In this document: positions 2,433 through 36,065 of the stretch, in pieces
Position numbering within the stretch: the stretch's first letter is position 1
How the letters are laid out: each line of letters starts with the position of its first letter
Assembly: GCA_933822405.4 (NCBI GenBank)
Contig: CAKOGP040000779.1
Coordinates: 200,291 to 264,290, forward strand
Direction: 5' to 3'
Length of the DNA: 64,000 bases
DNA from: Cylindrotheca closterium
Taxonomy: Eukaryota; Bacillariophyta; Bacillariophyceae; Bacillariales; Bacillariaceae
Program-made: the position numbers and the translations under genes
The notes under the pieces: generated by a model
Told to the model about the DNA's origin: nothing
The model's input: the letters and a program-made list of their open reading frames with translations, nothing else
Database searches by the model: none

Positions 2433-5400
2433 TCACATTTCATCGAATGGTACGGAACCTTCATCATCCATATCTGTGGGTCGAAAGACCATGACTCCTT
2501 GAAGGTGATCGACAGGATCCAACGCCAGCTCTGGTGCAGCATTATGGCCATCTTGTGGACCCGGCATTAGCATACTGGTCGGTTGAGTTGTGGTCGTGGC
2601 AGCCCGTTCAGTTCCACTAATGTAGCTCATGATCGATGACAGATCCCAATCATTGTCCAAGTCGCTATTTGAGACCATGGCTCCTTGAGGGTGGTCGATA
2701 GGATCCAGCCCTAACCCTGATGCAACACTGTGGTCATCTTGTGGACCGAGCACAAGCATACTTGTTGGTTGAATTGTTGTCGAGCCGGCCCTTTCAATCC
2801 CACTAGTTCCACTAATGTAGCTCATGATCGATGAAAGGTCCCAATTATCATTGGAATCTTCCTCTTTGTCTGAATACTTCTGAATGCTTGGAGGACAATT
2901 CTCCAGCGGCATTTGGATTTTACTGATTTGGTTTGAACTGGAAGAAATGTCCACATTTCCGCTGAGCAACTCGTCTCCTGGACCAAGCGCTTGAGTACTG
3001 ACTGGTTCCGCTGCCGTACTCCCGAGGCCGATGCCATGAGTAACTGCATGCGCGCGTCTTAGGGGTTCTACAGGTACCAGGGCTTGAACTGATTGAAGGT
3101 TTTCGTTTTCACTGTAGCTGTACAACATTGGTGGCAGGCCCCTGTTATTGTAGGCATAATCGGTTTGCTGGGCAACAATTGGCATACTTGGGGGATGGTT
3201 CTGCGGTGGGCCTTCGCGCGTATCGAAAAGGGTCGAATGTTCAGTTGAGACTTCAAATCCGCTTGGTTGCGCCCGAATTTGCGCGCTACTTCCTCCACTT
3301 TCGACCTTGTCTTGATGCTGACGAAACCCTTCGCCCACACCGGGTTCGTATAAGCTCGGTGCTATCCCGGCCCTTTCGATCGGATATTGCATCACATCAC
3401 TTGACATGCTGATTGGGTCATCGCGATGAATTGCAGCGTTGTCGCTAGATAGGTTTGAAGCTGAAGATGGGAATGTCGGAATGCTTCTTGTATTATCCCG
3501 CTCAGCATCTTTGATTTCGTCCACATTCGAAGACTTTTTCGAAAGCCTTCCTTCAAGGTTTACCTTCACAGTTGACAATATAGATGATGCACCACCTCGC
3601 AGCTTTTGAACAGGCGTCGTTCGTGACTCAGAGGCACTGGATTGCGTTGACTCCAGGTTTGCCTTCAGAGTTGACAACATAGATGATGCACTACTTTGAA
3701 GCTTTTGAAGAGGTGTTGTTCGCGACTCCGTGGCCGTGGATCCGGTCATACAACGCCGGGACAGCACGTGACATACCCAATAGATGTCCCAACGGTGAAG
3801 CTGCCGTCCCATTGTTTCACTTGCATCTTCACTCGGAAGCGGGCCCATCACCAACAACCATGCAAGCAAAAAACCCATACTGTACAGGAGAGCCATTGCT
3901 GTCACACAGCAGATAAGAATGCCAAGTTCCACCAAAGGAATTGCCCGACACCCAAAGAGAAAAACGCAGCCTCCAATTGTTGAAATGGCACTAGCACAAA
4001 TCGGCGAGCCAGTGATGAAAATAGCTTGCTTCACTTTGGTCTTGCGATTAGCACTTTTCGATCTATGATAGGCATGCACGACGTGTAGTGAATAGTTGGC
4101 ACTCAATCCAATGAAAATGGAAACACCCAATGCCTGGACAGGACCAAGAGCTCGATCAAGCACAAAAAACAACCACCCCGCAATGCACATGAACATTAGA
4201 ATGATTGTCCCGATAACCATTGCAGAAAGCAGCAGGTTCTGAGTGAAGAAAAGAATAATCGCGAAGCAAAGCAAGTTGGCAAGTAGCCAAGTATTGACAG
4301 TTGCATCAATAGTCTCTTGAGCTCTGGCACTGTTCCAGAAAAGATCACTCTGAGCGACCATCGGAGGAATATCGCTGGGAGCCTTCTCATTCATTGTGTC
4401 TGAAAATTCTGTCCATTTGCTGAATGACCCAAGAGATGACGATGCACGGGACTGGAATGTGACACTAGCGTATAGAGGCTGCCCAGCGAGGCCAGGAAGA
4501 GAAGTTCCAATCTCATCCTTCACAATTTCTTCGAAAGCCGGATCCTTGAACTTGAGGATTTCCACGTAACTCGTAAAGAGTTCCTTTTGTATCGGAAATC
4601 CGCCATCTTGTTTCCTGGCAAAGTCGGCCAGCATCTCTATCCATGTGGGCTCAGAAGATATGGCGTTGAGACTTTTGGTAGCTCTAGCAGCCAGCACCAC
4701 TTCCAAAAGCCACTGTTGATTGGCTGGTTTTGTTACATCAAAACCAGAAACGCCAGCTAGAAGGGACTTCTCGTCATCCTCAACCTTCTTCATGCTGCTC
4801 TTGACTCTCCACGGGCCAGTGGTATCGGTGCTCTGTGTATCGATCCCCCACAGCAGTTTAACTGATGTTTCTACCAAAGAACTGGTCTCGTTCCCTGTGT
4901 TTATGCCCGGTGTCTGACTGGGAGTCGGAGCAGTTGGTCTCATGGTCGGTGAAGCAACTGGTGTACCACCTCCAATGCCTCCTCCACCACCGACGCCATT
5001 GCCGTCATTTGGCGTTGGTGTCACTCCGCCAGTGCCTCCGCCGGATCCAGTCCCACCGCCATTCGAGCCTGCCCCACCGCCTCCGCCATTTGAGTTGGTG
5101 CCACCTCCAGTGCCTCCAGTACCCCCTGTTGTCCCACCACCACCTACAGATCCACCTCCCCCGGTGGAACCGCCATTTCCCCCAGTCCCAGGATTGCTAC
5201 CTGGGTTTCCACCTGAGTTCCCACCCGTTCCACCGCTGAAACCACCACTTCCACTTCCAGCATCACCACCGATACTTCCAACACTTCCGCCAGTACCCGA
5301 ACCTCCTACTGACCCGATTGATCCGCCCAATGAAAGTGATGCCGGGTCGACTTGACTGTAGTAGTTATTCTGAGAGAAAAATTAGAATAGATCACTGGCA

Positions 5401-8400
5401 GCTTGCACAGAAACAAGTTAGTGAACACATACCTTGATTGATGTTAACCGGCCTTGATTGTATTCATTCGAAAAAATAATAATCGAACCATCAGTGAATT
5501 CGAGATTTGCAAGTCCAAGACTGCCAATGATGATAGCAAACAGGATAGATAACGCAAGAATTGGTATCCGTCTTCGGACAAGAAAAGGAGCGTAGCCGTT
5601 GTAAAGTATCCTGTCCATCAAGCCCAAAGAAGACGGTGCAGCAATTTCGCCAAGGTTCTCATTTCCATTGCTGTGGCGTGGATTTCCCGTCGATTCATGC
5701 CTGTGCAAGCTTGCTTCCACATCGTAGCCGCTTTTTCTTCCTGGGGCTCCATTGTTTTCATAGGAACCATTTAGATCAGTACTGGCAATATCTTCATCTC
5801 CCTTCTTTCCCCCCGAGCAACAACAGCAGCAAAATGGTTTGAAGTATATCTCATTCACCAATATAGCACTCGGTAAAATAGTCATCACATGGAAAAAGTT
5901 GATCAAAACAACCATTCCCATGTAGATACCAAAGTCTTGGATCACCACCAGCACTCCAAAGGCATTGCTAAAGAAACAGACTGCAGCCGTCATACTCGAG
6001 ACAAGCATCATTCCTCCTGCGGTCGAGTAAGCCCATAGCATTTGCTTTCTTATCTTTTCGACGCGGCTTTCTTCTCTTCCATTTGCATCTGGGTCTGCCG
6101 AACTCTCGACAAACGATGAATTGGATTGGTTTTGGTTCTGGTTTGATCCATCTTCTTCGTCTTCTTCTGCGACCATACCGATTTTGGCGTGCTCATAAGA
6201 GTCAACCATCAAAAAGATGTCGTCTGCACCGATTCCCAACATCACAAACAAACCGGCGATATGAAGGAGAGTAATTTCAGGAATGCCAAAATGAGCCGTG
6301 CACCAGTAGTACGAAGTTGTAAAGGCAAGGATCAACCCGAGCATTCCGAAAAAAAAGACGAAAAAGTCTTGCACTTTCAAATAAATCATAATTCCAATAA
6401 CCACCAAACTTCCAACACTCCAAAGGGCATCGTGAAGCAAGGCTTCATTGGCTTCTTGCTGCAACAAGAATCCGTTCTCCCAGGTGAAAACCAAGTTCGG
6501 GTAATACCTTTCTTGGTCCCGTTTGATCAAAAAGTCCTCATAAAAGCCTTTCAAGAATGAATTCACAGCTTCGCTGCTTTCACCTTGAAAGTAGATGAAA
6601 CTCTTGGTCATATTACTCGCCAAGTTGTTGGGAATGTTAAAGTACTGATCGACTTTTTCGGGAGTTGCCTTTTCCGCCAAGGTCCCCTCAATGTCATCTA
6701 CAAACGTTCCATCAGCCTCTAGTAGCCAGGACAAGGGAGTTCCGAACCGGCAGGATCCGTCTGACAAACGCCGACAGAACTCTTCATAACGCGGATACTC
6801 TATCACATCTCGTTCAAACTGCTTCAGTTCCTCGAGCAATGTCGGTGTAAAGACGTTACCACCATTTCGTTTCTCGTAGATCACCTGCAATGTTGTTCGG
6901 TAAAGTGCTGGTCGTTGTGAAACTCCATCATCTCCGCCTTGCAAATGACGGCTGGTATTCGCATCACTTTCGCTTGATTGGCCTTCCAACCATGCAAGGC
7001 TTCTTCGGTCGTCCGGTTTGTAGATTCCCCAATCTCCAAGGGCATTGCAAATAAGATCCGCCTGTTTCGACGAAGTCTCCTGAAATGCAACGGCACCATC
7101 ATAGTTATCAGAAACAATAGTTACGCCACTGGAAATCGCAAGATAGGATTGAAAGTCTAGGTTGATGTTGACCGTGTATCCAGCCCGCGAAACGGCGAGC
7201 CAGCTCAAAAAGATTGGTATGCCAAGAGACACCAACAAGAAGCATCGTGGATAGTGCGTCAAGGCATACAACCAGATCTGGTAGGGGCCAATGGGTGGTG
7301 GGCTATTCTTCTTGGACCGATGATACCGCAGCGCAAAGTAGACCATGTACGCGAATACCACAATAGCAACACAAATCACAGCGACTGCCAGCCAACTGAG
7401 ACGTAAGGTAACCTCATCATCTGTACCAGTATCCTCACCATTGCCATTCAAGACTTCTTGAATTGACAAAGAATCACCATCGCTTGCATCTGATGATGCA
7501 AAAGAGGAACCACCAATTGCTGGAGCTTCCGCATAAGTCCAAGAGAGCTGCCGCACCACTCCTTCTAGAAACTTTCCAAACGACTCATCCTCGTTGTCCC
7601 GAGGAAAGGCGTATTTGGGACATTTCTCAAAAGCATTGGAACTGTAGTCACTCGATGGAGTAAATCGATGAAAGCGATCACCCCTGGCCTGTTCCATCTC
7701 CCGCAATAGTTGCTCTTCCAATGCCGCATTCATGCCGCCATCGGACGAGGATACCCACACATGGTGCACCGAGCTCGGCGCTCGTCCCACAAAGTATTTC
7801 AAATCATATGGCAGGTTTCCAAATGGTAGCTCCACAGCTTCCAAAACTGTCTGGAAGGTTTCGAATTGCGGCAACGCGGGATGAAAGAGACTGGCTCCCT
7901 CCACCACCACCAGAGCCGATTCCATGGTAGTGAAATAGGAGGCCGCCCGATTGGCAAAGATTGCCGACGCCACACTTGCGGATGCTTCTTGCGGATTGGA
8001 TAAATCGCAACCTCCAATACTCCCTCCTGCCACTGTCACGAGACCCTGCAAACCGGTCATAGCGGGCACGGCACCAAAATAAAAATCTTGCCAACTAACC
8101 TCTTCCCTTCCAAATTGCCGGACTACCCACGCCAAAACCGCGTCTCGGTTGGCCGCCCCACGGTGTTCCAAGCGTTCCGTGTCGCATCCCGTAACATGTC
8201 CCTGTTGGCCGTATCCCAAATGCCAATCCAAGGTGCAATGCGGAATCAAAATGTAACTCCAATCTTTCATATTATTGTTGTTGTTGCCGTTGTCAATCTT
8301 GTCCCACCAACCTGACTCTTGTCGTTCCATGAGTGGAACGTCAAAAGCAGTCGTATTGTCAAACAAGGAGGACGTCAGGGTGGAAACAAAATCTGGAACC

Positions 8401-8846
8401 ACTCCATGGCACGAACCCAATCGTGGCAAGGCCTGATCGTCCGTGTCATTGTAAGCTTGGGCATAGTCTTGCCAAGGAACCTGACGGTCTGAAGCATCAC
8501 ACGAACATTGGTTCCCCCAACAGGCGGGGCCACCTTCAAATTCCACAATCAATTTCCGGTAATGTTCCGGTGAGCCTTTGCGAAACAAAAAGGAAAAGTC
8601 GGACCGATCGCCGCACATGGGCGACAAAACTCCAGCAGGCAGGAGGGATTGCAAATCTCTCGGAAACTCAATGAAATAGGATCTATGAGATTGCATGCTC
8701 TCAAGAACATTCTGATCCGCGTGGGAAAATCCATTCAGCAGGGCGTTTGGTTTGTAGAACAACGCGTTAGTGCATTGTGCGCAGAAGAAAGAAATCAGAA
8801 GAAGAAAACTCGGCAAATGTGGTGTCATTTGTTGTTGTATTCTCAT
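2433..8846 (-). CDS. Notum/pectin-acetylesterase-like hydrolase fused to Patched/Dispatched-like RND protein (copy A)
   Basis: Two exons: complement(5433..8846) and complement(2433..5369). The 63-nt intron begins GTATGT, ends TTTCTCTCAG and is phase 0; the spliced protein is about 2116 aa. Residues 1-28 are a signal peptide. Residues about 40-430 resemble the pectinacetylesterase/Notum carboxylesterase family: EFEGGPACWG (102-111), IPHCTLDWHLG, HRGAANRDAVLAW and the nucleophile elbow GGSIGG with Ser276. A transmembrane segment (about 484-506) leads into an RND permease: a first extracellular domain, a sterol-sensing-type bundle (about 810-1000) with GIGADD at 871-876, a Gly-rich loop encoded at the start of exon 2, a second membrane bundle containing GLSANYSLHVVHAY, and a long disordered tail with two duplications. 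Expected in the plasma or an endomembrane with the esterase outside or in the lumen. Substrate unknown. A paralog lies at 30837-36065. Confidence 0.82.
2480..2860 (-). repeat. Two tandem ~185-bp coding repeats in RND copy A tail
   Basis: Two consecutive copies encode about 60 residues each. Both contain WDLSSIMSYISGT, then a T-rich QPTSML stretch, GPQD, LDP[IV]DH and QG[AV]MV. The copies differ by several substitutions and a short indel. The repeat lies in the predicted cytosolic C-terminal tail, and RND copy B has nothing like it. Confidence 0.85.
3540..3745 (-). repeat. Two tandem ~105-bp coding repeats in RND copy A
   Basis: Each unit encodes ESRTTP[LV]QKL followed by SSASSMLSTLKANLE or GGASSILSTVKVNLE. 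It sits just after the last membrane segment, at the start of the cytosolic tail. The short amphipathic pattern could form a helix; no function is recognised. Confidence 0.8.
5000..5330 (-). repeat. Gly-rich low-complexity segment in RND copy A
   Basis: Over 100 codons at the 5' end of exon 2 encode mainly Gly with Ser, Thr and Asn, then a Pro/Thr-rich stretch. It lies in the second large extracytosolic loop. The paralog has an equivalent Gly-rich run at the same place relative to the intron (about 32260-32480), but the sequence differs, so the linker seems to evolve freely. Confidence 0.85.
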
Positions 8847-9623: not shown

Positions 9624-10640
9624 TTACAAGTTGGTCACTGCCACCAAATCTACTTCGTCACAGGCAACTCGTCCCGATTCTCTGGTCGTTCCCAATCGAC
9701 CAATGATCATGGAACTAAAGCCCTTTTTAATCAACAAACTCACATCATGCTTCTTTTCGGCCACAAATTGTACCGTGGCGTCCTTTCCACAATCTGCCAA
9801 GATGGTCCCTCGTCCACCCTTGTGATCATCAATGTAACCAGTCAAATCATAAATGACTCCATACAAGGCATACCAACAAGAATTTGCATCCGGGTGTTGG
9901 GCGACGTCCTGCACAGTATAAAATTCCATGGGGCAACCCCAAAGTTCCGTGGGCGGAGCCGTGGTCGGTCTTTGCGTCGGTGGAGCCGTGGTGGGTCGAC
10001 TGGTGGGAGATCGGGTGGCACCACGTTCGGTAGGAGCCATGGTAGGCCGCAGAGTGGGAGGAGATGGAGCTCTTGTAGGGGATCCGGGTGTCTTCGTGGG
10101 AGCCATCGTGGGAAAGTCGGTCGCTTCAATTTCTTGCAAACTTCCCAATAGATATTCGTCCACAATTGGCAACATGACAATGGAATGCTCAAAGTCATAG
10201 GCAGTCGTGGCGTCCGTTCCACAATGACGGGTAATCAACGTTGGCAATCCTGGATGAATGGGGGCATATTGTGTCATGTCATAGACATTGCCGTGAATCG
10301 TCATCCAACAATCGTCTGCCGAAGCGTGGGATTGAATGGTGGCCATACTTACCATGCCTTGAAAATTGTCATGCTGCGATTTGCCTCTTGTCAAATCAAT
10401 GTCGTCCTCTTGCAAAAAGAAATAGGCACCCAAGGCAGCTGCCACAAGGGTCAACATTCCCAAGACAAAGGAAACCAATCGCGAATAATTATTGGGTTGG
10501 CGTTGCAAATCTTGATAATCTTCTTGAAAGATGGGATCTTGTTTGAGACTATTCTTGAAAGTACTGCTGATAGGAAGAGGTGGTGGTGGAGGTGGAGGAG
10601 CCTCACTGCCATATGGAGAAAAGTTGCCTTGTGGTGCCAT
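9624..10640 (-). CDS. Membrane-anchored protein with two cytochrome b5-like domains (b5 A)
   Basis: Predicted 338 aa from the ATG at 10640, which has a good context (ACCATGG) and fits the paralogs; the frame stays open to another ATG at 10799. A basic/polar N-terminus precedes one transmembrane segment (LGMLTLVAAALGAYFFL). Two cytochrome b5-like domains follow, separated by a linker of repeated Pro-Thr motifs. Domain 1 has DDCWMTIHGNVYDMT, the heme-ligand region APIHPG and a second His in FEHS. Domain 2 has SCWYALYGVIYDLTGY, DDHKGG instead of HPGG, and EKKHD. Each domain has a Cys before W and another before G[TK]DAT, a possible disulfide. Positive charge before the membrane segment suggests the heme domains face away from the cytosol. 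It is divergent from the ferric reductase at 11203, which suggests electron transfer between them. Confidence 0.8.
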   Translation of the reverse strand: MAPQGNFSPYGSEAPPPPPPPLPISSTFKNSLKQDPIFQEDYQDLQRQPNNYSRLVSFVLGMLTLVAAALGAYFFLQEDDIDLTRGKSQHDNFQGMVSMATIQSHASADDCWMTIHGNVYDMTQYAPIHPGLPTLITRHCGTDATTAYDFEHSIVMLPIVDEYLLGSLQEIEATDFPTMAPTKTPGSPTRAPSPPTLRPTMAPTERGATRSPTSRPTTAPPTQRPTTAPPTELWGCPMEFYTVQDVAQHPDANSCWYALYGVIYDLTGYIDDHKGGRGTILADCGKDATVQFVAEKKHDVSLLIKKGFSSMIIGRLGTTRESGRVACDEVDLVAVTNL

Positions 10641-11202
10641 GGTGCTTACAGTAATCTTCTTTTGTGGTTGTGGTAGTGGATGGAGGAGAAAGATGTGAGT
10701 GGGAAATTGCCGCAATTTCATGACTGTTTGTTTCCCAACGGCAGCAAAACACGTCGGCTTGCGAACCACAAATGCCGACAAACTTCCGTTCAAAGACATT
10801 AGACAGTGCTCTCAGCTGTTCCGCGCTCCTTGAATACTCCAGTAATGATGCCATTCCTCAATTTTCACTTATTGTCACTGGGTCCCGGTCGTTGCACTTA
10901 TGGTTGAAACAGGATAGCGCTACTTATAATTAGGGTTAAAATAAGATGCAACTAGCTTCATTTTACCGTCAGAAACACAATTTGGCACGATTCTTTCTAG
11001 TAATTCGGAGAAAGTGACGTAAATACCAGGCAAAATGATACATTTATGATCACACGCTGAAAAGTTGTCCGTTGAAAAGCATTATTGGACCGCCAATGCT
11101 GGTATACGTCGGCAGCTACAGAAATAAGTCCTTTTCGTTATATCCGGCATCATCCTCACTATTTTTCTGACGATCAATCAAAACAGTAATAACACACCCA
11201 TC
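10641..11202. promoter_or_regulatory. Shared divergent promoter region, cytochrome b5 A / ferric reductase A
   Basis: 562 bp between two divergent start codons. It contains CACTGGGTCCCGGTC at 10876-10890, closely matching three motifs in the equivalent region between the paralogous pair (26954-27571). Such a motif, kept while the surrounding sequence has diverged, is a candidate cis-element for co-expression. The function is inferred. Confidence 0.5.
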
Positions 11203-13053
11203 ATGCCCAAACCTCATCGCATCAAGAAGAATGATGCTGCTTCAACCACCCAGCAGCACGTCATCCCTACAAGAACTTACAAGCCGCATCAAACCACCAG
11301 CTTGGAATCTCCGCTCTTGCATCTGATTCTTCAACCATGCCTGAGTTTCTTGCAGCCACTCTTGGCGAGTCTCTATCGACTTCGTGGCATTCTGGCACAT
11401 CCCACGAGAATCAACGTGGTTCCTGATTTCATGGCAGGCTTCTTGCCAGCTCACCTTGCCTCTACTGCAGTGGGAGACTTGATTTTGTTAGTTCCCATTC
11501 TGACCTTTATTTTGCGTGGCGCCCATTACACCTTTGTGTCGCCCTCGTTGGAATTGGGTGGCTACATGTCGGCCTACTGCATCTTTGTGGCGTATCTAAC
11601 AGCCAGCAAATCTAATTCCCTCTTTACCTGGTTGTTTGGAATCCCATACGAGCGTCTCATTGGATTGCACTGGTTCGCCTCTGTGTCAGGAGTCGTCCTG
11701 GGTGCCTTTCATTGTTATGTGTCCTATGCGTTTGGAGGAGATGATGATGGAGACTCGCGATTCTCCAAAGCCTTTGTGGGAGGGACTCCCAACTTGGGCC
11801 GATTTCTCTTTGACGGGGTAAACAATTCGTCGGGAACCATTTTGCTAACGTCCATGGGAGGCATGGTCCTGATGAGTTTCTTTCAATTCCTCCGCCGCTA
11901 TGCTTTCAATATTTGGTATTTGCTGCATGTGGTCTTTGGCATTTTGATTTTGATCATGTTGTTTGTTCACAGTGTTCCATCAGCTGCTTTTGTCACGGCC
12001 TGGTGGGCCTTGGACTTGGTTGTTCGATATGCTGTCATGGCCGGCCTCCAAAATGTGACTCGCGCCAAACTACGCATTCTTGGAAGCAAGAAGAAGGGGG
12101 CTCGTGTGGTGGAACTCATTGTCAAGAAACCGAAAGGATTTCAATACAATGCGGGACAATTTGTTCGCTTGGCGGTGCCAGCAATTTCGGCTGTGGAATT
12201 CCATCCCATTTCCATTGCTTCAGCTCCCGATGAACAGTATGTTGTATTGCAAATTCGAGAGTTGGGAGATTGGACAGAACGCTTGTGTCAATTGGCCGAA
12301 ACAACCGAGTTTACAGATGTTCTGCTCGAAGGTCCCTATGGGGCAATGTCGGTTGACTTGGAAGACGACAATAAATACACAATGGTGTTGTGTGTCTCGG
12401 GTGGCATCGGTGTGACACCCTGTCAATCCGTTGCGAAGCATCTCTTGTTGAAACATCGACAAGAAGGCCGTCACTTGAAAAAGCTAAACTTTGTTTGGGC
12501 AGTCCGTGACTTGCAAATGGTCCAAGATATGCCTCCCTTGTTCCTGGGATCGACACCAAACTCGATGGAGGACGAGGAGGCGAATATTACTAATCCAACT
12601 ATACCAAGAGAAAACTACTCCAAGTCCAGCCCCGAGTTTCAACGAATGATGGAACGATCGGATGACCTTTGCAGTGGTGCGATGGATACTAGAGATTCAT
12701 CACAATCCACAACTCACCCATTGGATATCGCAAAGCTGCCCCGTCGTCCTGCAGTGGTCCAAGCGGACATTTATCATACTAAGAGAAGCAGCAGCAGCAA
12801 CAGCAACATGACATCAAATGGGCAGCTTCCGTACAATTTGTACAGTGGACGACCCGATTTGGATCGAATCTTTGACGAAATGAAACGAAGTGCCATTGCC
12901 ATGGGAGCGAGCAATATTGCTGTCATTGGATGTGGTCCACTGGCACTGATAGAGTCTGTGCAAGAGGCTTGTCGCAAACACAGCTCCAGTGTTTTAAGCA
13001 CGGGGGGTGATGCAGTCTTTTTCGACTTTCACAAGGAACATTTTGAACTATAA
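11203..13053 (+). CDS. Ferric reductase / NADPH-oxidase-type transmembrane oxidoreductase (copy A)
   Basis: Single exon, 616 aa. The N-terminal half is a ferric-reductase-type heme membrane domain with the expected four His: 156 and 170 on one helix (GLHWFASVSGVVLGAFH), 242 and 256 on another (LLHVVFGILILIMLFVH). The C-terminal half is a flavin reductase module: FAD-binding HPISIASAP (334-342), EGPYG, and the nicotinamide-nucleotide loop GGIGVTP (400-406). A variable Ser-rich insert precedes the last strand, and the end SVLSTGGDAVFFDFHKEHFEL is typical of the family terminus. It should move electrons from cytosolic NAD(P)H across the membrane to ferric iron, cupric iron or oxygen; the sequence does not decide which. 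Paralog at 25082-26953. Confidence 0.9.
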   Translation: MPKPHRIKKNDAASTTQQHVIPTRTYKPHQTTSLESPLLHLILQPCLSFLQPLLASLYRLRGILAHPTRINVVPDFMAGFLPAHLASTAVGDLILLVPILTFILRGAHYTFVSPSLELGGYMSAYCIFVAYLTASKSNSLFTWLFGIPYERLIGLHWFASVSGVVLGAFHCYVSYAFGGDDDGDSRFSKAFVGGTPNLGRFLFDGVNNSSGTILLTSMGGMVLMSFFQFLRRYAFNIWYLLHVVFGILILIMLFVHSVPSAAFVTAWWALDLVVRYAVMAGLQNVTRAKLRILGSKKKGARVVELIVKKPKGFQYNAGQFVRLAVPAISAVEFHPISIASAPDEQYVVLQIRELGDWTERLCQLAETTEFTDVLLEGPYGAMSVDLEDDNKYTMVLCVSGGIGVTPCQSVAKHLLLKHRQEGRHLKKLNFVWAVRDLQMVQDMPPLFLGSTPNSMEDEEANITNPTIPRENYSKSSPEFQRMMERSDDLCSGAMDTRDSSQSTTHPLDIAKLPRRPAVVQADIYHTKRSSSSNSNMTSNGQLPYNLYSGRPDLDRIFDEMKRSAIAMGASNIAVIGCGPLALIESVQEACRKHSSSVLSTGGDAVFFDFHKEHFEL

Positions 13054-18763: not shown

Positions 18764-19261
18764 TTTTGGCCTATTATTATGGAGCTTGTAGATGTGGTGC
18801 TTTCGCAGTGAGGTGCCTGCTTATGGTCATCCGGAACGTTCCCAGATCACGTACGCTGGATGTGGTCACCTCCACAAAGATATTTTCATTTCCGAATGCG
18901 GGGATCGAGACCGCACACGCCGATCCAAAACAGAAACGTGACTGCTGGCGAAGATTCCTATTTCGTGAATCCGCCGACTTCTTTGATCATAGCTACAAAG
19001 TACCTTAAAAAAATATGTATAGTACCTCGGACAAGTAAAAGCAATCAGTACAAGATGGTATAAAAATATGTTCTATAAGTAAGCGTAGATGTAAGACGTA
19101 TGGGTGCCGCTTCCGGTGTGTACCACTCAAGCTAATGGTGGAACATCCTTCAATAGTTGACTGCCAGCATGCATTGGTGTATTTTTTCTTTTTGTTTTCT
19201 ATAATGAATCGTATATGCAAGTTTTCGCTTCCATCAGCAAAGGCCCTAAATGTGGAAAGAA
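18764..19261. other. Intergenic, no gene seen
   Basis: 498 bp lying 5' of the large kinase gene (which reads leftward) and 3' of the small leftward gene at 19262. It probably carries the kinase promoter. No recognisable element or coding signal. Confidence 0.4.
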
Positions 19262-25081: not shown

Positions 25082-26953
25082 TTACAATTCAAAGTGCTCC
25101 TTGTGAAAGTCAAAGAATACTGAATCATCTCCGCAAGCACCCAACAAAACACTTGAACTGTGCTTGCGACAAGCCTCTTGTACGGCATCTATTAGCTTTG
25201 CTGGACCACATCCAATCACAGCAACGTTCGTTTCTCCCATGGCAATTGCACTTTCCTTCATTTCTTCAAAGATTTTGTCCAGGTCGGGACGTCCACTGCA
25301 AAGATTGTATGGCAATGAAATCGTGGCATTGGCTCTCTCAATGTCATTGGCCAGTTTTTGCTGCGTGCAATAAATGTCGGCTTGTACCACTGCGGGACGA
25401 CGAAGCAACTCGAACCCACTGGCATGAGGTGTCCTCAAATCCTCATCAAATTTAGAACTGCGAAAGTAATCAGATCGTTCCATCATTCGCTGATATTCTG
25501 GGCTGGACTTGGAGTAGTCTTCTTCTATTTGAGCAGCTTCGCTATTGTCCTTTGTGGTTGGTGTCGCTCCCAAGAACAATGGAGGAATATCTTCGACCAT
25601 TTGCAAGTCTCTGACCGCCCAAACAAAGTTCAGCTTTTTCAATCGTCGGCCCTCTTGCCGATGTTTCAACAAGAGATGCTTGCCAACGGATTGGCACGGT
25701 GTCACACCGATTCCACCCGAGACACATAACACCATGGTGTACTTGTTATCGTCTTCCAAGTCTATCGACATGGCCCCATAGGGACCTTCCAGTAGAACGT
25801 CTGTGAAGTCGGTCGTTTCGGCCAACTGGCATAACCGTTCTGTCCAATCTCCAAGCTTTCTTACTTGAAGTATAATATATTCTTCATCTGGAGCAGAGGC
25901 AATGGAGATGGCATGGAATTCCACAGTGGATATGGCTGGAACTGCCAAGCGAACAAATTGCCCGGCATTGTATTGGAATCCTGCTGGTTTCTCCACAATA
26001 AGTTCCACCAAACGAGCCGTCTTGCCTCGATGTTGGGTTCCAATGACGCGAAGTCTGGCACGAGTCACATTCTTGAGGCCGGCCATGACGGCATATCGAA
26101 CAAGTAAGTCCAAGGCCCACCAGGCGGTGACAAAGGCAGCCGATGGAACACTGTGGAGGAATAGCATGACCAGAATCAAAATGCCAAAGACCATGTGAAG
26201 GAAATACCAAATATTGAAGGCATAGCGGCGAAGGAATTGAAAGAAACTCATCAGGACCATGGCTCCCATGGCATCGAGCAAGATGGTTCCAGACCAGTTG
26301 TTTACCCCGTCGAAAAGAAACTTGCCAAAGTCTGGGGTGCTTCCCACAGCTTTAGAGAATCTCGAATCTCCATTGTCATCTCCTCCAAATACGAAGGACA
26401 CATAGCAGTGAAAGGTGCCAAGGACAACTCCAGCCACAGAGGAGAACCAGTGCAACCCAATGAGACGCTCATAGGGAATCCCGAACAACCACGTAAACAG
26501 GGAATTGGATTTGTTGGCTGTCAAGTATGCCACAAATATGCAATAGGCTGACATGTAGCCACCCAATTCCAGAGATGGCGCAATAAAGGTGTAATGAGCT
26601 CCTCGTAGAATAAATACCAGGATCGGAACCAGCAAGATCAAATCTCCCACTGCAGTAGAGGCGAGGTGGGCTGGCAACAAACATGCGATAAAGTTTGGAA
26701 CGATATTGATCCTCATTGGATGTGCGACCATGCCACGAAGTCTGTACAGACTAGCCAACACAGGTCGCAAGCAGCTGAGACATAATGGTTGTAGAATGAG
26801 ATGCCATAGCGGAGTTTCCAAGCTTGTTGTTTGATACGGCTTGTAGGTTCTTGGGGGGATGATGTGGGTTGGAATATGCTTCTTGGTTGCTTTTGAGCTT
26901 TGGGACGAGGCACTGCTCTTCTCAATCTTTTTGGAGTGATGATGCTTGGCCAT
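25082..26953 (-). CDS. Ferric reductase / NADPH-oxidase-type transmembrane oxidoreductase (copy B)
   Basis: 623 aa from the ATG at 26953 (ACAATGG context), chosen because MAKHHHSKK aligns with MPKPHRIKK of copy A; the open frame extends 53 codons further upstream. It is very similar to copy A throughout. The heme-ligand His are at 168/182 and 253/267. The flavin motif is HAISIASAP (347-355): the Pro normally next to His in HPxS/T is Ala here. GGIGVTP is intact. The Ser-rich insert before the last strand differs from copy A in sequence and length. The role is as for copy A: transmembrane electron transfer from NAD(P)H to an extracytosolic acceptor. Divergent from cytochrome b5 B. Confidence 0.9.
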   Translation of the reverse strand: MAKHHHSKKIEKSSASSQSSKATKKHIPTHIIPPRTYKPYQTTSLETPLWHLILQPLCLSCLRPVLASLYRLRGMVAHPMRINIVPNFIACLLPAHLASTAVGDLILLVPILVFILRGAHYTFIAPSLELGGYMSAYCIFVAYLTANKSNSLFTWLFGIPYERLIGLHWFSSVAGVVLGTFHCYVSFVFGGDDNGDSRFSKAVGSTPDFGKFLFDGVNNWSGTILLDAMGAMVLMSFFQFLRRYAFNIWYFLHMVFGILILVMLFLHSVPSAAFVTAWWALDLLVRYAVMAGLKNVTRARLRVIGTQHRGKTARLVELIVEKPAGFQYNAGQFVRLAVPAISTVEFHAISIASAPDEEYIILQVRKLGDWTERLCQLAETTDFTDVLLEGPYGAMSIDLEDDNKYTMVLCVSGGIGVTPCQSVGKHLLLKHRQEGRRLKKLNFVWAVRDLQMVEDIPPLFLGATPTTKDNSEAAQIEEDYSKSSPEYQRMMERSDYFRSSKFDEDLRTPHASGFELLRRPAVVQADIYCTQQKLANDIERANATISLPYNLCSGRPDLDKIFEEMKESAIAMGETNVAVIGCGPAKLIDAVQEACRKHSSSVLLGACGDDSVFFDFHKEHFEL

Positions 26954-27571
26954 TGTAACTTTCCTGGTGCGTTGAGATGTAGAGTGACGATTTCGTCTTT
27001 TTTGATTTTGTGGGTTGGTTGTGGCACGAGAATCGTTCATTCTTACGTATATATAATGGATATGGATGCTGTGTCGTGATTGTGATGGTAACTGATGAGT
27101 GAAATTAAGCACGATCGATGATATTGTTTGGGCCTGGTTTTGATCATCACTGGGTCCCAGGTGGATTTAGTCCATAATTTAAAAAGGTCACAAGTCCCGG
27201 GTCACGACGGATACAGAAAAAGTGGCGCTCCTTTCTTTAAGTAAACATGTCCACAGGTCCCGGGTTATACCGGATACGGAGAAAAGTTTTCCTTCCTCCG
27301 AAATCCAAACCGAAGTAATTGTGCGAAACTTCACTCACCATGCCATCACTTATTAGGTAGGCTGCAGCAATAGTTTAATACCATCTTGCCACTTTTATCT
27401 CAATTCAAATCTGCTCACAACTTTTGGCGAACGCAATGTAAGACCCATTGTTCTTCCTCCGCTAGTGATCAACGGCACTAGTGATTTCCCTGACCTTTTT
27501 TTTGCCGACAGCCAGCAGAACTGTTATTCGTCTTCTGGTGTATTATCCCAAAGCAGAACTCCTATAAAACA
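26954..27571. promoter_or_regulatory. Shared divergent promoter region, ferric reductase B / cytochrome b5 B
   Basis: 618 bp between divergent starts. It contains three related motifs: CACTGGGTCCCAGG (27149-27162), CACAAGTCCCGGGTCAC (27189-27205) and CCACAGGTCCCGGGTTA (27251-27267). The last two lie in a 63-bp imperfect tandem duplication that also repeats CGGATAC. The equivalent promoter of the copy A pair has one such motif. A candidate shared regulatory element; the regulator is unknown. Confidence 0.55.
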
Positions 27572-28705
27572 ATGAAAGCATCGAAAGGCCGTCGTCATCG
27601 CGACGAAGAAATGGCATCCTCTCGTAAAAGTTCTCACAGGCATGTCCCAAGGAGCGTGCGTCGTCCACTTTTCGAAGAAGATATGCAAGACTTTCAACGC
27701 CGCAAACGTCCTGTATATGCTCGATTGATTGCCTTGATGCTGGGCATGGTGACCCTAGTTGCTGCTGGATTTGGTGCCTATTTTTTTCTCGAAAAGGATG
27801 AAATTGTTTTACAAAAGGGCAAGTCACAACATGATAATTTCCAAGGTGTCGTTGCAATGGAAACTATCGTGGAACATACGCAGCCCGAAGACTGTTGGAT
27901 GTCAATTCATGGCAAAGTCTATGACATGACCGAATATGCTCCTGTACACCCGGGACCACCCAGTTTGATTACAAACCATTGTGGAACGGATGCAACGAAT
28001 GCGTATGACATCTTTCATTCGATTAGCCTTCTACCGATTGTGAATGAATATCTGTTGGGAACCCTGGAGGAAATAACTACGTCACCTCCAACCAGTTCCC
28101 CGTCATCCGTTCCTTCCATGGTCCCGACTACTTCTCCTCCATCGAGGTCTCCCACAGCTAGTCCGAGCACTTCTCCTCCGACACGGTCCCCTACCATATC
28201 ACCATCGGCTGCTCCCAGTATGCGCCCAACTACGCCGCGCCCTACGGAACCGGAAGCTACCCCCTTTCCTACAAGCAGTCCAAGTACTTCTCCCCCCACA
28301 AAAACGCCAACACCTCCGCCTACAATGCGCCCAACGCCATCGCCCACTAGGCCTCCTACGCCCAGCCCTACCAATCGTCCGACGCCGCGTCCGACAGACC
28401 AGGGATGTACTATGGAGTTCTATACAATGTCGGATGTTGCCCAGCATCCAAATTCGGGCTCCTGTTGGTATGCTTTGTACGGAGTTGTTTTTGACTTCAC
28501 AAATTACATCGATCGGCACCCTGGTGGACGACGAACTGCATTGGCGGGATGTGGGATAGATTCTAAGAGCGCCTATGAATCAGAATCGGGCCACAACAGG
28601 AACCTATTGCGCAGGTATAGTTCATATATCATTGGCCGAGTGGGAACAACGCGGACAACAGGGACAGTACCCTGCAATGAAGTGGACCTTGTAGCAGTGA
28701 ATTGA
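27572..28705 (+). CDS. Membrane-anchored protein with two cytochrome b5-like domains (b5 B)
   Basis: 377 aa, single exon. The N-terminus is strongly basic (KGRRHRDEE and later RRKRP), then a membrane segment (LMLGMVTLVAAGFGAYFFL). Domain 1 has EDCWMSIHGKVYDMTEY, APVHPG and IFHS. A linker of about 110 residues is almost entirely Pro/Thr/Ser in P-T-x units. Domain 2 has SCWYALYGVVFDFTNY, a canonical DRHPGG, and SESGHN. The order of parts matches b5 A, with higher similarity in the b5 domains than in the linker. The basic flank suggests the N-terminus is cytosolic and both heme domains are outside or lumenal. Likely the electron-transfer partner of ferric reductase B, its divergent neighbour. 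Confidence 0.82.
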   Translation: MKASKGRRHRDEEMASSRKSSHRHVPRSVRRPLFEEDMQDFQRRKRPVYARLIALMLGMVTLVAAGFGAYFFLEKDEIVLQKGKSQHDNFQGVVAMETIVEHTQPEDCWMSIHGKVYDMTEYAPVHPGPPSLITNHCGTDATNAYDIFHSISLLPIVNEYLLGTLEEITTSPPTSSPSSVPSMVPTTSPPSRSPTASPSTSPPTRSPTISPSAAPSMRPTTPRPTEPEATPFPTSSPSTSPPTKTPTPPPTMRPTPSPTRPPTPSPTNRPTPRPTDQGCTMEFYTMSDVAQHPNSGSCWYALYGVVFDFTNYIDRHPGGRRTALAGCGIDSKSAYESESGHNRNLLRRYSSYIIGRVGTTRTTGTVPCNEVDLVAVN

Positions 28706-28879: not shown

Positions 28880-29419
28880 ATGCGAGCCTTCACAGGAAGA
28901 TTGAGAATAGCATTCCTGGCTTTCTTCATATCGCACATTCCCATTACAATATCCATCGATGCACAGGCCGCATTGCCCCTGTATCCGCAAGCACTCCGAG
29001 ACTTGGTTGCTTGGTATTGTTCGGTCTCGGGGGATGTTTTGATGATGGAACCTCACAACAAAGTATGGTTCTCTTCCATTGTATTGGGTGAGGTCATGTT
29101 GCAGCTCCCTTTCTTTTTCGTGGCCGTCCATATGATGTACAAACATGGCGATGTTGCAAAGTCAGCAAGATATCCTCGATGGTTTCAGAAGGCATGTTTG
29201 GTGTATGGTTCCCACGTTGCTACAACTCTGATTCCAATAAATGGCACCCTTTTGGTCAGTTCTGAAATGAGCCCTATTCAGAAGATGGTGACCATTACGA
29301 TTTATTCGCCGTATTGGATATTTCCTTTGCTTTTGGTCTGGTATGCTTGGGAAGATGATGCTGGTGGTGCAAATGACAAGACTCCCAATAATCAGGACAC
29401 AAGGTTGAAGAAAGAGTGA
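28880..29419 (+). CDS. TMEM97 / sigma-2-receptor-like EXPERA protein
   Basis: 179 aa, single exon, ATG at 28880. It matches the TMEM97 (MAC30) family in length and motifs: ISHIPITISIDAQAALP, YPQALRDLVAWY, an Asp in SGDVLM, LGEVMLQLPFF, YGSHVATTLIPINGTLL, and YSPYWIFPLLLVWYAW. The two acidic residues important for ligand binding in animal TMEM97 (in the first helix after HIPIT and in the following loop) are present. Four membrane helices are expected in the endoplasmic reticulum. EXPERA proteins handle sterols or related lipids, and animal TMEM97 binds NPC1, a sterol-sensing-domain RND protein. It lies between two cytochrome b5 genes and near RND copy B, so a sterol-related role is attractive but inferred. 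Confidence 0.85.
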   Translation: MRAFTGRLRIAFLAFFISHIPITISIDAQAALPLYPQALRDLVAWYCSVSGDVLMMEPHNKVWFSSIVLGEVMLQLPFFFVAVHMMYKHGDVAKSARYPRWFQKACLVYGSHVATTLIPINGTLLVSSEMSPIQKMVTITIYSPYWIFPLLLVWYAWEDDAGGANDKTPNNQDTRLKKE

Positions 29420-29520
29420 AGAATGTATGCCCTGCAAATCACTGCATGAAAAAGGAATATCTCCAATAGGATGGGGACTAGAAGCAAGATAATGTCCGTG
29501 AAACCGAGTTGTTTAAGTTT

Positions 29521-30384
29521 TTAATCTTCGCTCGAATCGGATGGAGGGTTGTTGGTGGCAGGTGGAAAGGCTGATGTGTCGGTTCCTTCCAAGGCTCCCA
29601 ACCGATATCTGGCTACAGTCGTCAACAGGGATCTGCTGTGCGCGGAGGCATAGGCATTTGTTGCATCCGTTCCACAATGATTGGTAATGAGACTCGATGA
29701 TGCCGGATGATTGGGGGCATATTGTGTCATGTCATAGACAATGCCATAGTAGGCCAACCAACAATCTCCGGCTGTTCCGTGCATTTGCATAGTTGCCAGT
29801 GCAATCTGAGACCCTTCTGCTGTTGAACCGCCAGAAGAAGGACTCTCATTGGAGCTGTTGGGTGGAGTAGCTGACCCGTCGTCGGCTCCTTGCAAGGCTC
29901 CCAATAGATATTCACTCACAGTAGGCAACAAGGCTTGGCTGTGCATGGAAGTATAGGCGGCTGTTGCATCCGTTCCACAATGATCGGTAATCAGCGAATC
30001 CGGTCCAGGATGAAGAGGAGCATAGTCTGTCATGTCATAGACATTGCTATGAATGGCCAGCCAGCAGTCCCCGGTCGTTGCATGCATTTCGATGGCTGAC
30101 ATTGCGACACTTCCTTGAAAATTTTTGTGCTGGTAGTTTCCCTTTTGCAAATCAATGCCATCCTTTATAAGGAAGTAGTAGGCGGCAAATGCAACTGCAG
30201 CCAGTGTTACCACGCCCAGTATACAGGCACTCAATCGAGAACGTGTTTGGCGTTTTCGGCGTTGAGAATCGCCTACATCATCTTCAAATTCTCGATTGCG
30301 AAACATCTTTCGAGGCGCGCCGTGCTCGTTAGTAGAGGGTGCTTCCAAATCGTTAGGATGTCCGGTATGGGGTGCAATTGCCAT
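29521..30384 (-). CDS. Membrane-anchored protein with two cytochrome b5-like domains (b5 C)
   Basis: 287 aa from the ATG at 30384 (the open frame begins eight codons earlier with a non-ATG codon). A basic segment (RRKRQTRSR) precedes one membrane helix (ILGVVTLAAVAFAAYYFL). Two b5-like domains resemble each other strongly: GDCWLAIHSNVYDMTDYAPL with HPG, and GDCWLAYYGIVYDMTQYAPN with HPA; each also has HCGTDAT and a second His in MHS or AHS. Here domain 2 is like domain 1 of b5 A and B, unlike their domain 2, so this gene probably arose by internal duplication or domain replacement. The linker is short and lacks the Pro-Thr repeats. Same strand as RND copy B, whose 3' end lies 0.45 kb upstream. 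Confidence 0.8.
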   Translation of the reverse strand: MAIAPHTGHPNDLEAPSTNEHGAPRKMFRNREFEDDVGDSQRRKRQTRSRLSACILGVVTLAAVAFAAYYFLIKDGIDLQKGNYQHKNFQGSVAMSAIEMHATTGDCWLAIHSNVYDMTDYAPLHPGPDSLITDHCGTDATAAYTSMHSQALLPTVSEYLLGALQGADDGSATPPNSSNESPSSGGSTAEGSQIALATMQMHGTAGDCWLAYYGIVYDMTQYAPNHPASSSLITNHCGTDATNAYASAHSRSLLTTVARYRLGALEGTDTSAFPPATNNPPSDSSED

Positions 30385-30836: not shown

Positions 30837-33800
30837 TTATAACTCAAACAGTTCTGAATCTGATTCGATAGATCCTGACAAGCCATCTTCCTTTAGTGCT
30901 TGGTTTGATGATGATGTTTTCGCATCCTCTATTCGTGGCTTGGTGGGTTGCCCCCAATCGTTGCCTGTCTTCGGTTCCGATTTCTCTGCCTTGTTTAAGA
31001 TGTGCTTCTTCCCCATTACACAAATATCCCAGCGGTGCTGTTGATAGCCATTGATTTCCGCTCCAACTGGTAGTGGCCCGATCGTTAATAGCCAGGCTAG
31101 CAAGAAACCCATACTGTAAACCAATGCCATTGCTGCTACACAGCAGATTAAGATTCCCAGCTCCACCAGTGCCAGTGTCCTGCAACCAAGAAGAAATGCG
31201 CAACCTCCAATCGTCGAAAGAGCGCTAGCAAAAATTGGAGATCCTGTAATGAATACCGCTTCCTTCACTTTCGTTTCTCGTTCATTGCTCTTGGATCGGT
31301 GATACGCATGGACAACATGAAGGGAATAGTTGGCACTCAAGCCAATAAATATTGATACCCCCAAGGCTTGAACTGGACCCAACGGAAGTTGGAAGATAGC
31401 AAAGAGCCACCCTGTAATGCAGAAGAACATCAAAAGAATGGTAGCCATGACCATCAAACATAGAAGGATGTTTTGGGTAAATAGTAATATGATTGCAAAG
31501 CAGAACAAATTTGCAATTAGCCAAGTCATTACAGTCGCATCGACTGTTTCAGTTGCTCGGGCTTCGTTCCAAAAAAGATCACTTTGCGCAACCATTTGCA
31601 CGTTTGGGTTGGGTGCTGCAGCATTCAAAGTCCGAGCAAATTGATCCCACTTTTCGAATGTTGTAAGCGTTGCTGAATCGTACGATCGAAACGTGATGCT
31701 CGCATACATTGAGCTGCCAGCCAATCCAGGCAAAGCAGTTCCGATCTCCCCTTCGACAAGCCTCGCAAATCGTGGATTTGTTGATTCCAGTACTTCAATG
31801 TAGCTCGTGAACAGCTCCGTCGGGGCCGGGAAACCATCTATTTGGTTTGAAGCAAATTCCGCAAATAGCTCGATCCATGTAACTTCATCTTCGATAATAT
31901 CCAGAGACTTATCCAGTCTTGCAGCCTCGACCACGTCCAGTAGCCATTGCTGCGATTCTGGCGTTGAAACATCAAATCCTGGTACCAAACCGTCCAACAA
32001 CTTGACATCTCCCCCTGGTGTCGTCGTCGCTTCAGACAGCACTTCCACCGTCCAGGGTCCACTTGATTGTCCGTCACTGACGCCAACTCCAAAAATAAGC
32101 TTAACCTCGATGATAGCACCTGGGCTTCCTATGTTGTCAGTCGCATTTGTGCTGCTGTCAGCAACGGACGGCTGAAATGAAGGTGATAGTGTTGGGGCAA
32201 TTGTTGGTGGAGTTGGTGCGGCTGGTGCAATGATTATTGGAGCAGAAGTGAAGTTTCCCGCATTCCCGCCTCCACCGCCATTGCCTCCGCCACCTCCTCC
32301 GTTCCCACCACCTCCATTGCCACCTCCCCCATTTCCACCACCGCTTCCATTTCCTCCTCCATCTGAGCCTCCTCCGCCATCGCCGCCACCTTCGCCACAG
32401 TCTACACCGGTGCAACCCGATCCACTGCTTCCATCGCCAGATCCGTCAGATGAACCAGAGCCTCGACTTTCGCTGGACGATATTGAATAATACTTGTTCT
32501 GAATTCAAAAGATCAACTGTGAGTAGGACTGTTGTCCACAAAACAATTAGCAAAGAGCATCGTCTTCACTCACCTGAATTGAAGTCAACCGGCCCTGATT
32601 GTATTCACTGGAAAAGATGACAATGGATCCGTCAGTGAATCCAAGATTCAAGAACCCGAAAAGTCCGAGGAGAAATGCAAAAAGAAGAGATACAGCAAGA
32701 ATCAATTTTCTTCGACGTTTCAAGAACGGTGTATAACGATCCAGTAACATGCGGTCAATGCGATTCAGTCTCGAGGCACTAGGTGCAATTGGTGCTACTG
32801 GTGCAGACTCCTGTACCTTATCATCCTGCTTTGGTGATTCTCCCATAGTGATTTCTACACAGTCATCTGCGGCCAAGATTCGATTAGGGCCAGAGGGCAT
32901 GCCAGATGCCCGAGCAGAGCCCATTGTTTCGTCCACTTTTGTCCTTTGCCCCTTCGCTTCCCTGTTGGTGTTATCGTGTCTTTCGCCAAGACACCACTCG
33001 GGTAGCACTTTTCTTTTCCAAGGCTTGAGATACATTTCATTGACCAAGATGGCACTTGGCAGTATCGTCATGACGTGAAAGTAATTGATCATTACAACCA
33101 CTCCCATATAAATACCAAACTCTTGAATGACAAGAAGTACACCAAAGCCATTGCTGAAAAAGCATACAGCTGCTGTCATACTTGACACCAGCATCATACT
33201 GCCGGCAGTGGAATATGCCCATTGCATTTTGCTACGAATGGCTTCAAGTTCTTGTTCTGCAGGTGTTTCAGTTCCAGGCGAAGCAACTTCGTCATCAACA
33301 TCGGCATGTGTGTAGGAATCTGTCATCAAAAAGATGTCGTCGGCACCAATTCCTAGCATTACAAACAATCCTGCTACATGAAGCAATGTCACATCTGGTA
33401 TTCCAAAGTGCGTGGTGCACCAATAGTACGATGTCGTGAACGCCAGAAGCAATCCAGTCATTCCAAAGAAGAAGATAAAAAAGTCTTGAACTTTCAGGAG
33501 AATCATAAGACCGATAACGACCAAGCTGCCGAGACTCCAGCGAGAGTCATGATACAGCGCGTCATTGGCTTCGAGGCGCAAAAGATACCCATTTTCCCAT
33601 GTGAATAACAAATCTTCGTAGTACTTCTCCTGGTCTCGCTTCCAGAGAAAATTGTTGTACAAGTCGTCCAGAAAGCGATCCATTTCACTCTGTTGACCCT
33701 GAAAGTACATGACGCTCTTTGTAATGTTGCTCTGCAAATTATCTGCCCCAAAGTATTGGTCGACTTGCGAACTTTTTGCTTTGGCAGCCAGAGTTCCTTC

Positions 33801-36065
33801 GATATCTTCCACTATAGTCCCGTTTTGGTATAAATACGTCAGCGGTGTATCAAATGGGGAGCAATCCTCCTTATCGCGACGGCAGAAGATCTCAAAGTCT
33901 GGTAGGGATCGCACATATTCTTCAAAGTCATAGATCGAAGATATGACCTCGGCGTCAAAGACATTTCCACCATTTCGATTTTGATAAATGATGTAAATAG
34001 TAATGTATGCTATCCGTTCGCTGGTAGTTGTTGCGCCATTGTTGTCTTGCAATCTCCTATGGCTCGTATCCCAAGCGTACGACTCCTTCTCCCCCTCCAT
34101 GTCGTCCCATAGCTGAAGTCGACGGCGACTGTCAACGTCCCCACCCATGGTCCGGCATTGGCTCCTTGCCTCCGAGACTGAATCCTCCTGGAATTGTTGC
34201 GCGGCGGCATAGTTGTTTGCCACGATATCCAATTCACTCGAAATGTCCAAATAGGATTCAAAATCCAAATTGACATCAATGCTGTAGCCGGATCGCGCAA
34301 AGCCTACCAGACTCAACGCAAGGGGAAATGCAATCGAAACTAGTAAAAAGCAAGCTGGATAATAGGTCAGTGCCTTCATCCAAAGCTCATTGGGTGAAAG
34401 TGGTGGCGGCAAGCCTTGCTGTTGCCGCCGACGCTTGAGGCAAAAGTACATGATCCATGCCAATGCCAATATTCCGAGGAACAAAATGACAATCGATAGA
34501 TAGCCTAATCGCTTCACCGTCGTGTCTCCTGACTGATCATCATTGGCCTGTAAAGCGGTGATATTGTCAACATCATTGGCACTGCTGCTGTCGGCAGTAT
34601 CCAAACTGGATTGCCAACTCTTTGTCTTGACCACTTGTTTGAAAAAGGCAACTGCTTCCTCGCTGGATAAATCCGAAAAGGCAAATCTTGGACAAGACGA
34701 CGAGTCTGTATCGTCGGCCAAAGGTGGTGGTGTGTACACATGAAAACGATCTGGTTTCGCTTCTTGCAAGTTGGTCAATGCCCGTGCTTCCATAGTATTG
34801 TTGGAAGAGGATGCCATCCAGGCAACATCCATCACTTCTGGTGCTTCGACAATCATTTGTCCCACATCAGAAGCAAGGTTGGAAAACTCCGACAAAACCT
34901 TGTTGATATTCCAAGGCTCGTTCAAAACCTGATTGGAAGGTAAATTGGGACTAAAGAGACTCGATCCTTCCAAAATGGCCAAGACGGAAGACGGTTCGTT
35001 CCATTGAAAGGCCTCCGCTGCTTCCTTGGCAAAGACCATTGGCGCAATGGTGGAAGTATATTCCGGATCATTGGTGCTACATCCCCCAATTTTGCCTCCG
35101 GAAACCGTAATCATGGCATCCAAGGAGGAACCAAACTGTGTGGTTAGCCAATCCAATACCGCTTCCAAATTGGCATTGCCTCGATGCCAAATCCGTTCGC
35201 GTCCTTGATAGACGGGGGCATCCCACCAAGGGCCATCAAAGGGTGGATCGGGTCCGTCCAGTTCACAGCCACTCCAACGTCCTTGGGCTTGATATCCCAA
35301 GAACCAATCCATACTACAATGAGGAATTAGTAGATAGCTCCATTCGTCAATATCATTGCTCAAGGTTTGCCACCAAAAAGTGGAATCGTCATTTGTAGAA
35401 TTGGTCTTGTTGCTGTTGCTTTGACGTATGCCCAAGGGTACATCACCACCAGCATCATCATCGTTGTCGTCTGCTGCTGCTGCTGCTGTTGTGGAATTCC
35501 CATAAAACAAGCGTGGACTCAATACCTCCAGAAACTTGGGGACAATTCCGCTGCAAGTGCCTAAATTTGGCAAAGCTTTCGTTGTGGTTGGTGTAGCATC
35601 ACTGTAGTATTGATCTAAATAGTCCTTCCAGGGTGTTTGTCGCGAGTGGGCACCATTGCAACCACAATCCAAACCAAAACAAGCCGGTCCTCCTTCGAAT
35701 TCCACCAAAATCTTGCGAAAGTGAGCATTGGTGCCTCTCTTGAACAAAAAGGAAAAGGGTGATCGATTGGAACAAAGAGGTGCCAATTTGGGTGCCGCAA
35801 AGGAGGCATCTTCGAGTGGAAATTCAAAAAAGTAAGATCGTTGGGGCAGCATGGCGGTTTCCACACTGTTGGGTGCCGATCGATAAGCATTCAAGAGTTG
35901 TTTGTTGTTTTCAGCAGCAGCAGCAGCAGCAGCAGCAGCATTAGCAGTGTCAAGTTGGAGAGTAAGAATCAGAAGGACACATAATAGGAGAGAAGAGCTG
36001 CTGAGAAAGGCTACCATGGAAGAAAAGCTTTCTTGACGGGCTATCGTTCGTTGGAAATAAAACAT
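30837..36065 (-). CDS. Notum/pectin-acetylesterase-like domain fused to Patched/Dispatched-like RND protein (copy B)
   Basis: Two exons: complement(32574..36065) and complement(30837..32498). The 75-nt intron (GTGAGT...CAG) is at the same place and phase as in copy A; about 1717 aa. The N-terminal signal region includes a polyalanine run. The hydrolase-like domain keeps EFEGGPACFG, IPHCSMDW and HRGNANLEAVLDW. The nucleophile motif, however, reads GGKIGG: Lys325 replaces Ser, and the DWHLG His is Phe. The domain is thus probably not an active esterase. The RND part is well conserved: membrane segment, GIGADDIFLM, a Gly-rich loop after the intron, a second bundle with GLSANYSLHVVHAY and a tail much shorter than in copy A. 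Role unknown; a lipid- or sterol-binding or transport function is inferred from the fold. Confidence 0.82.
35910..35945 (-). repeat. CAG/CTG trinucleotide run (polyalanine)
   Basis: A run of GCA/GCT-type trinucleotides encodes about ten consecutive Ala after the signal-peptide core of RND copy B. Likely length-variable. Copy A has no such run. Confidence 0.9.

Follow-up and report, generated by a model that had tools for sequence, protein, structure and literature searches.

We analysed a 64 kb stretch of DNA (the window) from the diatom Cylindrotheca closterium, situated within a 584 kb contig (CAKOGP040000779.1) of a 47.6 Mb assembly. The window contains two copies, 12 kb apart on the same contig, of a cluster in which a ferric reductase (FRE), a protein with two cytochrome b5 domains (double b5) and a large RND-type transporter are encoded together. 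From left to right, copy A consists of RND (minus), double b5 (minus) and reductase (plus), and copy B of reductase (minus), double b5 (plus), a TMEM97-like gene (plus), a further double b5 (minus) and RND (minus). The families, coordinates and strands given in an original prediction, made from the sequence alone, were borne out, the families by Pfam (RND/SSD, double Cyt-b5, three-domain ferric reductases, EXPERA/TMEM97-like). The features are as follows (TM, transmembrane segment; aa, amino acids).

2433..8846, minus: RND copy A, Notum-like ectodomain (nucleophile position Ser) + TM + Dispatched-like RND, 2116 aa spliced (Pfam SSD/Patched, gene model, nucleophile column)
8846-5433 and 5369-2433, minus: exons of RND copy A, intron 5370-5432 (gene model)
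9624..10640, minus: double cytochrome b5 copy A, one N-terminal TM (Pfam Cyt-b5 in 2 stretches, haem His + Cys pairs)
10641..11202: divergent FRE-b5 intergenic region, copy A
11203..13053, plus: ferric reductase / NOX-like copy A, 616 aa (Pfam PF01794, PF08022, PF08030; two H-x13-H haem motifs)
25082..26953, minus: ferric reductase / NOX-like copy B, 623 aa (Pfam; 79% to copy A)
26954..27571: divergent FRE-b5 intergenic region, copy B
27572..28705, plus: double cytochrome b5 copy B1 (Pfam; alignment)
28880..29419, plus: TMEM97 (sigma-2 receptor)-like EXPERA protein (Pfam EBP 3.1e-14; PDB sigma-2 receptor 3.1e-19)
29521..30384, minus: double cytochrome b5 copy B2, second domain like domain 1 (Pfam; alignment)
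30837..36065, minus: RND copy B, Notum-like ectodomain (nucleophile position Lys) + TM + Dispatched-like RND, 1717 aa spliced
36065-32574 and 32498-30837, minus: exons of RND copy B, intron 32499-32573 (gene model)

Each RND gene is interrupted by a single GT-AG intron, located at the identical position in both (63 bases in A, 75 bases in B). The splice junction is read through by the Cylindrotheca transcriptome protein P0001, and exon 1 was 77% identical by BLASTP (81% in alignment) to a protein of C. closterium (taxid 2856). As had been predicted, the FRE-b5 pair is inverted between the copies; the two RND genes share a strand. The two FRE-b5 intergenic regions have in common the 11-base word CACTGGGTCCC (10876-10886 and 27148-27158), which is within shuffle range, and the two CCCGGGT repeats in the region of copy B were not beyond shuffles either.

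Domain structure of the encoded proteins

The RND proteins combine two parts. N-terminal to the RND part are about 500 residues with a hydrophobic start, followed by a TM and a short linker. The fold of this ectodomain is that of Notum and pectin acetylesterase (PF03283), the Pfam model being over its cut-off in family member P0007; in the diatom, the domain is fused to a transporter. A candidate column for the catalytic His of this fold showed His in 12/14 family members and Tyr in 2/14. When the RND family profile was compared with PDB, Dispatched came first (1.9e-31), ahead of the NPC1-related 8v0g (7.9e-10), Patched (1.6e-6) and NPC1 (6.8e-6). Dispatched (DISP1) was the best PDB match of both diatom RND halves, the SSD is common to the two, and the paired Asp of TM4 (GIGADD) is kept. 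Unlike Dispatched, the diatom protein has the N-terminal Notum-like ectodomain, an extra TM and a Gly-rich insert in the second ectodomain, and the TM10 Asp of 7fif is Asn in copy B (GLSANYS). Because of this last replacement the transporter is named here Dispatched-like and not Dispatched; the likeness implies no Hedgehog. The key residues of human Dispatched are D572, D573 and D1051 (the TM4 pair and TM10) according to PMC8630017. Structural work reported there employed a human protein in which Asn replaces all three Asp and which is described as binding its ligand more strongly.

A soluble ectodomain followed by a TM and an SSD-type RND is also the layout of NPC1. The N-terminal sterol-binding domain of NPC1 was not found in the diatom protein, whose ectodomain is Notum-like. 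No such fusion or cluster was described in the literature, going by titles and abstract openings and with subscription journals mostly outside the coverage.

The TMEM97-like protein contains an EXPERA domain and matched the sigma-2 receptor 7m93 (3.1e-19), with Asp at both aligned places, which we take to be residues 29 and 56 of 7m93. A role of Asp29 and Asp56 in the receptor is described in PMC7409002. Animal TMEM97 is an interaction partner of NPC1 and serves, together with PGRMC1 and LDLR, the uptake of low-density lipoprotein (PMC7409002, PMC6238005). The diatom RND gene has a TMEM97-like gene as a neighbour; stronger SSD matches exist elsewhere in the genome. PGRMC1 is a b5-like protein that is cytosolic and is not known to have the His pair. 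The parallel between animal TMEM97/PGRMC1/NPC1 and the RND, b5 and TMEM97-like genes of this locus is suggestive only.

The FAD, NAD and TM (Ferric_reduct) domains were all present in both reductases. Two H-x13-H haem pairs were found in 31 of 33 reductases (31 of the 33 database matches and our own two), the other two proteins (416 and 425 aa) having one. The double-b5 proteins have a single N-terminal TM with a more positive N-terminal flank. They belong to the cytochrome b5 family of Pfam, and both axial haem His in both domains were invariant (13/13 aligned; 10 of 28 matches and our own three). They differ from ordinary cytochrome b5 in having two domains on a Pro/Thr/Ser-rich linker, a predicted extracytosolic side and invariant Cys pairs: one pair in each domain in 13/13, and a further pair in 12/13. 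The Cys pairs and the linker suit an oxidising, extracytosolic side for the b5 domains, the topology being predicted by the charge rule. In b5 copy B2 the usual second domain is missing, and the second domain present resembles domain 1. The assignment of reductase and b5 to redox proteins, and of the RND and TMEM97-like families to lipids and sterols, held.

Linkage, rarity and duplication history

The occurrence of the same neighbourhood in related diatoms had been named beforehand as a check. Protein databases were searched for RND, FRE and b5 (best ~8000 candidates each), and placement on one contig was inferred from adjacent locus tags and equally long source contigs. On this basis FRE and b5 were linked in two other assemblies, and RND and FRE in one other. 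SGILL_004569 (reductase) and SGILL_004570 (b5) bear consecutive tags in a metagenome-assembled genome (MAG) of Bacillariaceae (contig 5943), and P0043 (reductase) and P0014 (b5), of metagenome source, come from contigs of equal size (19431). SGBAC_006586, an RND protein 70% identical to copy A, is two tags from the reductase SGBAC_006588 in another Bacillariaceae MAG (contig 21209). The linkage therefore recurs in three other assemblies; its absence from relatives, one of the two outcomes named beforehand as refuting the shared job, did not occur.

Within the genome, families were counted by six-frame searches of the assembly. Five matches to the RND family were found: the two window genes, 47% identical to each other, which alone constitute the family, and three of 27-29% identity that cover the SSD alone. 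The SSD by itself had 11 matches in the genome, and five of these outscored the window RND copies by a clear margin, so that the window RND is not the sole SSD protein. Nine reductase matches comprised the two window copies, which are mutual closest relatives (79% identity; 76-77% with other aligners), one at 36% and six weaker. Matches to b5 numbered at least 31 (103 of 588 candidates scored); the five best, at 84 bits or more, were the three window genes, and the next best among the scored candidates reached 51 bits with one domain. An 839 aa open reading frame (ORF) on contig C435 also has two b5 domains, but is a different protein of another type, so that the double-b5 family itself was seen as the three window genes only. 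The window gene was the only EXPERA match.

Two further loci were seen during these searches. At G000:C68:193276-199693, two SSD matches with identical scores lie about 6 kb apart, probably as a recent tandem duplication. At G000:C267:55815-66887, another FRE-like gene is located about 11 kb or less from two divergent b5 genes of another type and from a Flavodoxin_1 protein whose C-terminal tail is hydrophobic.

The original prediction of a single duplicated locus stood in that two copies exist; the gene pairs, however, are unequal in apparent age. At fourfold-degenerate sites, the reductases of copies A and B matched at 128/220 (chance 0.255, p 1e-24), the b5 genes at 33/99 (p 0.03; one 100-residue block 12/26), and the RND genes at 51/209 in exon 1 (p 0.59) and 46/157 in exon 2 (p 0.18). 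The difference between reductase and b5 (Fisher p 6e-5) and that between reductase and RND (p 4e-14) were both marked. For the reductase the ratio of the A-B to the A-SGBAC protein distance was 0.90 (0.75-1.07), and for RND it was 2.97 (2.58-3.41). In the FRE tree (25 of 33 matches and our own two, leaving out P0041 and P0044, which are the window's own, and P0068-P0073), the SGILL reductase branched outside the A/B group, whose support was 100/100. Trees were also built for b5 (11 of 28 matches and our own three) and for RND (first all 12 matches, then 8 of the 12, each with our own two). The RND protein SGBAC_006586 goes with copy A, and a second one, SGBAC_007368, with copy B, to which it is 75% identical; the A/B split is therefore older than the split of these species. 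For the reductases, gene conversion after an old duplication is favoured over a later duplication because the b5 genes of the same pair are nearly saturated. The shared strand of the two RND genes is consistent with an old tandem duplication and an inversion of the reductase-b5 unit.

Possible function of the cluster

The cluster is real, its linkage recurs, the fusion protein is striking and the predicted topology is coherent. Gene content, folds, haem ligands and linkage in relatives are established, while a joint function and any tie to sterols or iron are conjectural. The explanation that we favour, tentatively and at less than even confidence, is an extracytosolic module for handling lipids or sterols, equipped with an electron supply of its own and present in two diverged copies. 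Electrons from NADPH would cross the membrane by way of the two TM haems of FRE and reach, on the far face, the twin haems of the type-II b5 protein. There the Notum-like domain would bind an acylated or sterol-bearing substrate, which copy A perhaps hydrolyses and copy B merely holds, and would hand it to the Dispatched-like pump. The electrons delivered by b5 would serve to reduce the substrate itself, a carrier of it or a disulfide. The TMEM97-like protein, possibly a sterol binder, may govern the level or location of RND, as TMEM97 does for NPC1 in animals, and the copies may have specialised (Ser vs Lys; extra b5 and TMEM97 in B). In a bolder form of the proposal, which we regard as distinctly improbable, diatoms would have evolved a self-contained machine at the cell surface: a Notum-fold domain that binds acyl groups would supply the pump, and a dedicated NADPH-to-b5 relay would couple this to reductive chemistry acting on the lipid, sterol or lipidated protein that is exported. 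The shared membrane redox/sterol job of the original prediction stood as far as the families stay together and their redox and lipid/sterol assignments go; the job itself and sterol oxidation are conjectural.

Several observations weigh against the proposed module. The Ser nucleophile of Notum (S232) was kept in only 2/14 family members, one of them copy A, with Lys in 10/14 and Arg in 2/14, the column having been matched to Notum by motif in a region where the predicted local distance difference test score (pLDDT) is below 50. Since Lys stands there in P0004, the SGBAC orthologue of copy A, Ser is no fixed mark of that copy. Thus the hydrolase-RND fusion that had been predicted is real as a Notum-like and Dispatched-like protein, while its catalytic Ser is mostly absent. 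Asn stood at the TM10 position in 6/6 proteins that include this part of the transporter (P0002, P0007, P0008, P0009 and both window copies), and the pump may accordingly be atypical or inactive. Among the matches listed, neither RND nor TMEM97 was found linked to b5 outside this genome, and SGBAC_006587, between RND and FRE, was not among the 28 b5 matches listed. The adjacency of FRE and b5 could be ordinary synteny of fairly close species.

Under another explanation, which we consider unlikely, the genes share no job and are duplicated neighbours held by ordinary synteny. The 12 kb spacing on one contig, the common direction of the RND genes, as after tandem duplication, the confinement of the TMEM97-like gene and b5 copy B2 to copy B, and the unequal apparent ages of the RND and FRE pairs all agree with it; the last two also count against the module. 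Chance neighbourhood is harder to reconcile with the keeping of three families twice, when no other ORF of at least 70 aa was common to both sides at E 1e-4, antisense frames aside (shorter exons would escape), and with the linkage in three other assemblies. Moreover, the 36% reductase on contig C223 has all three domains, yet neither b5 nor RND was found among the 7 neighbouring ORFs scanned (one SET-like, two MIR, two polyubiquitin, two without match).

Reductive acquisition of iron (or copper), in which FRE and the surface double b5 form an extracellular metal reductase and RND and TMEM97 are neighbours or help in trafficking, appears unlikely. It would account for the complete FRE domain set, and a comparable arrangement is known: the FRE2/FBP1 pair of Phaeodactylum is likewise a reductase gene divergent from that of a surface protein, and is iron-responsive and needed for siderophore use (PMC6876252). 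The partner there is siderophore-binding, whereas here it is a double b5, and FRE sequence predicts substrate poorly according to the same source. The cluster lacked ACACGTGC, a promoter motif associated with low-iron genes of diatoms (PMC3491386); the window as a whole had one match, at 55332, where chance expects 1.39. No permease or siderophore-binding family was matched among 35 window ORFs scanned with Pfam (many without any match; no dedicated phytotransferrin model). No evidence was thus found for the predicted tie to iron supply. That the reductase makes superoxide for signalling in the manner of NOX, while b5 and RND have their roles elsewhere, is very improbable: the best PDB matches of reductase B were DUOX1 and NOX2, but the divergently paired b5 gene suggests an electron relay over direct reduction of oxygen.

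If the improbable surface machine described above exists, it would be a lipid-cargo release system outside animals, uniting folds that animals employ separately for Wnt and Hedgehog. A fusion of Notum-like and Dispatched-like parts in a unicellular alga bears on the origin of the animal lipid-morphogen machinery, and the family members with Ser, Lys or Arg at the nucleophile position make up a natural set of possible enzymes and pseudoenzymes. In culturable pennate diatoms, the cluster moreover provides a genetic handle on an apparently extracytosolic b5 relay.

Other genes in the window

Between copies A and B, a long single ORF (14051-18820) encodes BspA-type leucine-rich repeats and protein kinase domains, an EF-hand being below cut-off. 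A DUF1275 membrane protein (23465-24460) lies directly outside copy B. A tandem gene pair at 36501-38596 encodes FKBP isomerase and EF-hand domains in each member, and at 43216-46462 there are 3 tandem paralogous ORFs of 75-86% identity without a Pfam match.
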